A stretch of 37,177 nt of DNA from Gammaproteobacteria bacterium (GTDB lineage: Bacteria; Pseudomonadota; Gammaproteobacteria; Xanthomonadales; Marinicellaceae), in the NCBI GenBank assembly GCA_030432115.1, contig JAUIHY010000005.1, positions 1-37,177 on the forward strand. Direction: 5' to 3'. Positions 16,004-17,348 of the stretch are shown piece after piece. Position 1 is the first letter of the stretch, and each line of letters begins with the position of its first letter. Made by a program: the position numbers and the translations under genes. The notes under the pieces were generated by a model. The model had not been told where the DNA came from, did no database searches, and saw only the letters and a list, made by a program, of their open reading frames with translations.

Positions 16004-16252
16004 TTATTTTTTGGTGATGTTTTTCTTAACATGAAATAACTGTTCGCCCACAACTTGATGTGAGGTCATTGGCTTTAAATCATGACCAAATCGCTCACAC
16101 CAAATCTCAAAGTCCAGTTCAGCATGGGGGTCAGTCACCAACACCTCAACCACAGCACCTGCGGGTAATTCGGCCAAGGTCTTTTTTAACAGCATCAAAG
16201 GCATGGGACAATTGAGTCCGCGCGTGTCCAGTTGTGTGGGTGAATCAGTCAT
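16004..16252 (-). CDS. tusA: TusA/SirA-like sulfurtransferase
   Basis: LDTRGLNCPMPLMLLKKTLAELPAGAVVEVLVTDP is the TusA family CPxP signature. Confidence 0.85.
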   Translation of the reverse strand: MTDSPTQLDTRGLNCPMPLMLLKKTLAELPAGAVVEVLVTDPHAELDFEIWCERFGHDLKPMTSHQVVGEQLFHVKKNITKK

Positions 16253-16299
16253 GGGAGCAATTGTAGAGCCGATGGGTGTTTTTTTAAATCCCTAAAATG

Positions 16300-16381
16300 C
16301 AAAAGACCGCTCTGTGGCGGCCTTTCTCGGTCAAAAGATTAAGTAAGGGGGAAAGGGTGTGTGCACTTAATCTTTAACTTG
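16300..16381 (-). ncRNA. Candidate ~80-nt small RNA (or tusA leader attenuator)
   Basis: Predicted start about 16381 downstream of TAAAAT (16393-16388, minus) and a CRP-type site; perfect 11-bp hairpin AAAGATTAAGT/ACTTAATCTTT (16375-16334) with C-rich 20-nt loop, then the 16326-16301 terminator. Confidence 0.45.
16301..16326 (-). terminator. Rho-independent terminator between the rpoH terminator and tusA
   Basis: Minus strand GAAAGGCCGC-CACAGA-GCGGTCTTTT; 10-bp stem with G-U pairs. Confidence 0.75.
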
Positions 16382-16413
16382 AATTCCATTTTAATTATTG
16401 AGTCAAACTTATC

Positions 16414-16429
16414 TGTGAGCAACATCACA
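16414..16429. promoter_or_regulatory. CRP/Clp-type binding site
   Basis: TGTGA-gcaaca-TCACA, perfect match to the TGTGA-N6-TCACA core; centred about 40.5-41.5 bp upstream of the predicted minus-strand start. Confidence 0.6.
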
Positions 16430-16450
16430 AAAGCAATTAATGATTTCAAT

Positions 16451-16476
16451 AAAAAAGGCCGCAATTTGCGGCCTGA
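16451..16476 (-). terminator. Rho-independent terminator of rpoH
   Basis: Minus strand AGGCCGC-AAATT-GCGGCCTTTTTT. Confidence 0.9.
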
Positions 16477-16493: not shown

Positions 16494-17348
16494 TTAGATC
16501 GCCATTTGCGTTTTCAATTTTTTCAAAGCTGCGGCTTCTAACTGTCTGATACGCTCTGCTGACACTTGGTATTTGGCTGCCAGATCTTGTAGGGTGGCTT
16601 TTTTATCCACCAACCAGCGGCTTTGGATGATGTCCAAAGAACGTTCATCCAATTTATCCAAGCCTTTGAACAAAGCGTTGTGATTTTTATCTGCCTCAGT
16701 GTCTTTGATTAAAGTGGCTTCTGGTGTTGGACTGGTGTTGGTCAACCAAGCTTGTGGTGAATAGTTGCTGTCTTCATCGTCATCAACGGGCAAGTCAAAT
16801 GAAACGTCCTGTCCGTGTAAGCGTGATTCCATTTCGACCACCACTTCGGGTTTGACGTCTAAATCTTTGGCCACGCGGTTGACTTCTTCTTGGGTAAACC
16901 AACCCAAGCGCTTTTTGTTTTTGCGTAAATTGAAGAACAGTTTACGGTGTGCTTTGGTGGTGGCGACTTTTAAAATACGCCAGTTTTTCAAGATGAATTC
17001 ATGAATTTCAGCACGAATCCAATGCACAGCGAAGGAAACCAAGCGCACTTTGTGCTCGGAATCGAATCTTTTGATGGCTTTCATCAAGCCGATATTGCCC
17101 TCTTGGATCAAATCACCCACAGGCAAACCGTAGCCGGAATAGCCTTTGGCCACATAAACGACAAAGCGCAAATGTGACATTACCAGTGCATGAGCGGCTT
17201 CTAAATCATTGTGGTCGCGAACGCGATCGGCCAATGACCTCTCTTCTTCCACTGTGAGTACGGGGATTTGATTAACGGCCGTGATGTATGACTCCAAAGA
17301 GCCTGTGACCGAGGGTACGGGTAAATTTTTTATGGTTGTTTCTGTCAT
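16494..17348 (-). CDS. rpoH: RNA polymerase heat-shock sigma factor RpoH (sigma32)
   Basis: [76 protein letters not shown]-like RpoH box. Confidence 0.96.
   Translation of the reverse strand: [284 protein letters not shown]

Follow-up and report, generated by a model that had tools for sequence, protein, structure and literature searches.

The minus strand of the gap between rpoH and tusA very likely carries a real, conserved and formerly uncatalogued small RNA (sRNA) gene with a predicted CRP/Clp class II promoter. The element lies in a stretch of 37,177 nucleotides from a member of the Marinicellaceae (the whole of this stretch is referred to as the window). As an explanation of the whole element – a stand-alone sRNA, activated by CRP/Clp in class II fashion and silencing mRNAs with G-rich ribosome-binding sites by way of a C-rich loop – this reading is probable. 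A marine family of bacteria thereby gains a well-supported RNA family whose promoter, structure and range of species are described. No Rfam family reached its gathering threshold at the locus and nothing convincing appeared at E-values up to 5 (the copy of Rfam used may not include the sX13 model); a literature search found no sRNA paper for Marinicellaceae.

A preliminary description of this DNA had listed, on the minus strand and downstream of a strong rpoH terminator, a perfect TGTGA-N6-TCACA site, the hexamer TAAAAT, a perfect hairpin of 11 bp around a 20-nt loop, and an intrinsic terminator. All were found again, in that order, at 16429-16301, with the rpoH terminator on their 5' side at 16474-16456; Hfq, also said to be encoded in the window, is present. 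The features are as follows.

16494-17348, minus strand: rpoH (sigma-32), the 5' neighbour in only 4 loci
16456-16474, minus strand: terminator of rpoH, an insulator between that gene and the sRNA promoter
16414-16429, minus strand: CRP/Clp-type operator TGTGATGTTGCTCACA, unique in the window; same site and spacing in 27 family loci
16388-16393, minus strand: -10 hexamer TAAAAT, exactly 20 nt from the operator; TANAAT/TANACT in relatives
16299-16381, minus strand: sRNA gene with an RNA of about 80-87 nt predicted (from fold, covariance model and conservation)
16330-16378, minus strand: covarying hairpin of 14 pairs and one bulge, 16378-16365 pairing with 16344-16330
16345-16364, minus strand: C-rich loop GCACACACCCUUUCCCCCUU, presumed base-pairing site; near-invariant in the genus and C-rich in 27/27 members
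16301-16326, minus strand: intrinsic terminator of the sRNA (helix 2 of the covariation analysis)
16004-16252, minus strand: tusA-like gene, the 3' neighbour
1415-1654: Hfq gene

The sequence TGTGA-N6-TCACA occurs once in the window (0.06 occurrences expected), and the combination of operator, 20-nt spacer and -10 box, likewise found once, was absent from all of 100 shuffles. The start of the sRNA was inferred from the -10 box together with the point at which conservation among relatives sets in (16381). Since the operator is centred at 16421.5, a start at 16381/16380 places it at -40.5/-41.5, which matches the class II position (about -40.5 to -41.5) proposed earlier. No -35 hexamer stands at the usual spacing from the -10 box of this locus, and the operator overlies the -35 position, as in CRP class II promoters: given the inferred start, the layout is that of the class, which combines a -10 box with a consensus operator at about -41.5 and lacks a -35 box. 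Perfect class II CRP/Clp promoters occur at a few further places in the family (G015:C68:2336, G007:C235:4501, G009:C527:4041, G030:C214:48263 and G031:C92:5340); the first of these would start, apparently leaderless, on an ORF resembling lpxC.

Downstream of the promoter a perfect 11-bp stem, formed by AAAGATTAAGT (16375-16365) and ACTTAATCTTT (16344-16334) and lengthened by GTT/GAC with one bulge, closes the loop GCACACACCCTTTCCCCCTT (16364-16345, minus strand). The RNA folds at -25 kcal/mol (z = -4.9), and none of 200 shuffles was equally stable. The U tail past the terminator stem is short in the window species (about UGCAUUU) and U-rich in other species. In several species (for example L035, L040, L044 and L047) the loop of the terminator is rich in C as well, reaching CCCCCCCC, which recalls the several C-rich loops of sX13.

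Among the rpoH 3' flanks of 29 relatives the element was seen in L002, L003 and L008. A covariance model built from four sequences – of the RNA alone, with no promoter included – detected the RNA once in each of 16 out of 18 Marinicella genomes and once in each of two sister genera; L050, an additional weak match in G013, had no promoter and was dropped. Every one of the 18 matches has its operator exactly 20 nt upstream of the -10 box, and because the model holds no promoter sequence this constant spacing is an independent test. The preliminary description held that absence of the CRP site from close homologous loci would count against its proposal; the site was there, at identical spacing, in every case.

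Substitutions in the RNA follow its predicted pairing. In the 18-sequence alignment, which was fitted to the model and so favours structure somewhat, 94.3% of cells are paired and 14 of 24 pairs have changed on both sides. Double-changed cells number 33 against 9.5 in shuffles (0/500 shuffles reach the observed value), and the signal collapses once the partner is slid by 1-3 columns. Ten of the 14 hairpin pairs have changed on both sides, and for the terminator (helix 2) 100% of cells are paired, with 4 pairs changed on both sides. Conservation and covariation of hairpin and loop among relatives, suggested earlier as a check, are thus evident: covariation is strong and the loop nearly invariant. 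The two Marinicella genomes without the RNA (G005 and G009) resemble assembly gaps: G005 has no tusA match either, and tusA of G009 starts at base 90 of its contig, such that the usual sRNA position falls off the contig.

A promoter-only pattern was then run over 33 family genomes, with the reversed pattern as control. The control matched once; 27 of the 32 sites listed for the pattern are the sRNA, including strongly diverged RNAs from sister genera, each with hairpin, C-rich loop and terminator. The resulting tally of 27 loci comprises 16/18 genomes of Marinicella (g1), 9/11 of genus g3 and 2/3 of genus g4, the g3 and g4 genomes without it being incompletely assembled; the sole g2 genome, G018, does not have the RNA. 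The placement of this genome in the family (f1) looks odd: it consists of 4.7 Mb in two contigs, and its RpoH is just 38% identical. When the g3/g4 set was aligned with MAFFT and folded with RNAalifold, the terminator alone came out, because stem lengths differ, and the hairpins of these genera rest on single-sequence folds. In all 27 members the loop is 14-26 nt long, rich in C-runs and essentially G-free. Within each genus its sequence is nearly invariant; between genera the composition (C runs split by A/U) is kept more than the sequence, the g3 loop being CCCCCATTCCCTATCC and the g4 loops resembling CACCCCATCCCTCCCCCATTCCCTCT. Besides promoter and terminator, the C-rich loop is the sole feature retained across genera.

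A scan for promoter plus loop in one genome from each of 84,980 species gave 25 hits, of which 24 fall in Marinicellaceae (named Marinicella species and related uncultured genomes); the lone hit outside (L101) is cut by a contig end and has no hairpin. A looser pattern over 300 genomes of the order matched 28 family genomes and one other. Taken together, the two scans indicate that the RNA appears confined to Marinicellaceae. An order-wide search with model R2 "matched" 342 of 399 genomes; the loci inspected outside the family (L053-L063, 36-40 bits) are ordinary terminators with no CRP site, and the E-values of that search were for this reason distrusted.

The likely activator can be sought among CRP homologues. 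Marinicella genomes encode one close homologue each, 52-55% identical to E. coli CRP (G018, of genus g2, has no close homologue; best E 2e-5). The Marinicella protein retains the DNA-reading residues R180, E181 and R185, and recognition of TGTGA is therefore expected. The position of S83, a cAMP contact in E. coli CRP, is occupied by glutamate in 6/6 Marinicellaceae proteins aligned and in both proteins of the Xanthomonadaceae-like family f2. The same glutamate is seen in the Marinicella homologue at G000:C74:1656-2261 (L166) and in most other families of the order sampled; f3 (G034) keeps serine. We take E99 of Clp to occupy the same column as S83, which fits the f2 alignment. This glutamate marks a CRP subgroup that binds c-di-GMP, and binding blocks attachment to DNA (PMC10333796; PMC5449483). 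Like Clp of Xanthomonas (PMC10333796, PMC5449483), the Marinicella protein combines CRP-type DNA-reading residues with glutamate for S83, and judged by its sequence it is a Clp-like CRP homologue.

Because S83 is replaced by glutamate as in Xanthomonas Clp, the inducing ligand may be c-di-GMP rather than cAMP. For the Marinicella protein, c-di-GMP binding is a prediction from sequence. A class III cyclase domain is present in 17 of 18 Marinicella genomes and a class I adenylate cyclase in none, so cAMP control is still conceivable. Thus, of the CRP control claimed in the preliminary description, the CRP-like site and class II spacing stand, while the presumed activator is refined to a Clp-type CRP homologue with c-di-GMP as its possible ligand. 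A further proposal, which we put forward tentatively and with considerable doubt, is that c-di-GMP signalling in Marinicellaceae acts post-transcriptionally through this RNA: the Clp-type regulator would drive the near-unique consensus class II promoter and, being released from DNA by c-di-GMP, would cause the sRNA to report low c-di-GMP and to silence genes with G-rich ribosome-binding sites. A C-rich-loop sRNA tied to the global regulator CRP/Clp would in any case connect second-messenger signalling with control after transcription in a specific way that can be tested. CyaR and Spot 42 are enterobacterial sRNAs under direct CRP-family control; the Marinicellaceae RNA resembles them in the predicted control of its gene, but shows no Rfam similarity to them and has different genomic contexts.

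According to the mechanism we propose, a Clp-type CRP-family protein would bind TGTGA-N6-TCACA over the -35 region and activate transcription in the class II manner; RNA polymerase would start near 16381 and stop at 16301, giving an RNA of about 80-87 nt; and the long stem would present the G-free, C-rich loop of about 20 nt, which would base-pair in trans with target mRNAs, at their G-rich ribosome-binding sites or at G-runs close by, and lower their translation. That the RNA is a trans-acting silencer working via this loop is likely by analogy with sX13 of Xanthomonas, a member of the same order, whose C-rich loops repress mRNAs with G-rich motifs independently of Hfq (PMC3771888). sX13 has three stem-loops with 4C/5C loops, lies downstream of polA and is constitutive (PMC3771888). 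It is probably the nearest functional analogue: both are short structured RNAs of the Lysobacterales with C-runs in loops, a range of one family and presumed action on G-rich motifs close to start codons, and the composition of the loop is compatible with repression of the sX13 kind. Membership of the sX13 family is another matter, for the Marinicellaceae RNA has one C-rich hairpin plus a terminator rather than three C-rich stem-loops, has rpoH, groEL, an lpdA-like gene or a PD40 protein gene on its 5' side instead of polA, carries a predicted CRP/Clp class II promoter in place of constitutive expression, and shows no Rfam similarity. C-rich loops are also described for RNAIII of S. aureus, which arrests translation of its target mRNA (PMC2837412), and for Caulobacter GsrN (PMC5869019) and mycobacterial B11 (PMC10470900); lineages and structures appear unrelated, and the likeness is one of mechanism only.

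Targets were sought as AAGGGGGA-N(1-14)-ATG in 18 genomes, with the reversed word as control. Matches exceed the control in most of the genomes, as expected of any Shine-Dalgarno-like word. The search with the loop sequence, recommended at the outset, brought out no conserved target: genes preceded by AAGGGGGA are almost never the same across species, and isolated orthologue pairs only were found (a biotin carboxylase-like pair in G000/G013, one pair in G001/G002 and one lipoprotein-like pair). Pairing of the loop to start regions in the window, hfq included, was unremarkable, and the best duplexes used internal start codons. A role for Hfq is unsupported, because the U tail is short in the window species – a feature that argues against a classic Hfq-dependent sRNA – and because sX13 works without Hfq.

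The failure of a conserved mRNA target to emerge, and a loop that between genera is preserved as composition more than as fixed sequence, would also suit an RNA under CRP/Clp control whose loop is a decoy, titrating an RNA-binding protein or another RNA instead of pairing with mRNA. We consider this unlikely: near-invariance of the loop within each genus is predicted by base-pairing as well, and no widespread bacterial protein known to us is titrated by C-runs.

Another competing reading is a tusA leader or attenuator, in which the promoter belongs to tusA and read-through at the terminator is conditional. This alternative, already raised in the preliminary description, draws on the fact that in 15 of 16 RNA-bearing Marinicella genomes tusA lies directly 3' of the RNA, yet a fixed position upstream of tusA is not maintained. 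In G010 the two are about 7 kb apart, and in 10/10 g3/g4 genomes having both, tusA is on another contig, while promoter, hairpin and terminator persist. The 5' neighbor varies too, being rpoH, groEL, a dihydrolipoamide dehydrogenase-like (lpdA-like) gene or a PD40-type gene (names assigned by reading sequences). Moreover, no alternative antiterminator structure was seen, and a promoter-like TTTAAA-17-TACAAT precedes tusA itself (16288-16260, minus strand). The RNA is thus independent of both rpoH and tusA, and the leader reading is very improbable. A start from the promoter-like element would fall almost on the tusA ATG (window 16288-16252), where there is no obvious Shine-Dalgarno sequence; the tusA mRNA is possibly leaderless. 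In G010 (L035; G010:C107:165371-172770) prepilin-like genes are directly downstream of the sRNA.

That the element is an insulating terminator and nothing else, next to a chance CRP-like site, has in its favor that GGCC-stem terminators are common (the order-wide model search is full of them), but a spacing of 20 nt that is the same in 27 loci, the covariation, and a global scan with nearly all hits inside the family leave it with next to no probability, and as a full explanation it is already refuted. An encoded small protein is just as improbable, for the 27 RNAs have no ORF in common (most are without an ATG and no reading frame is shared) and substitutions preserve pairing.

As to other RNA genes in the vicinity, an RNase P RNA gene is located near the sRNA locus in the sister-genus genome G028 (L048:1820-2174).
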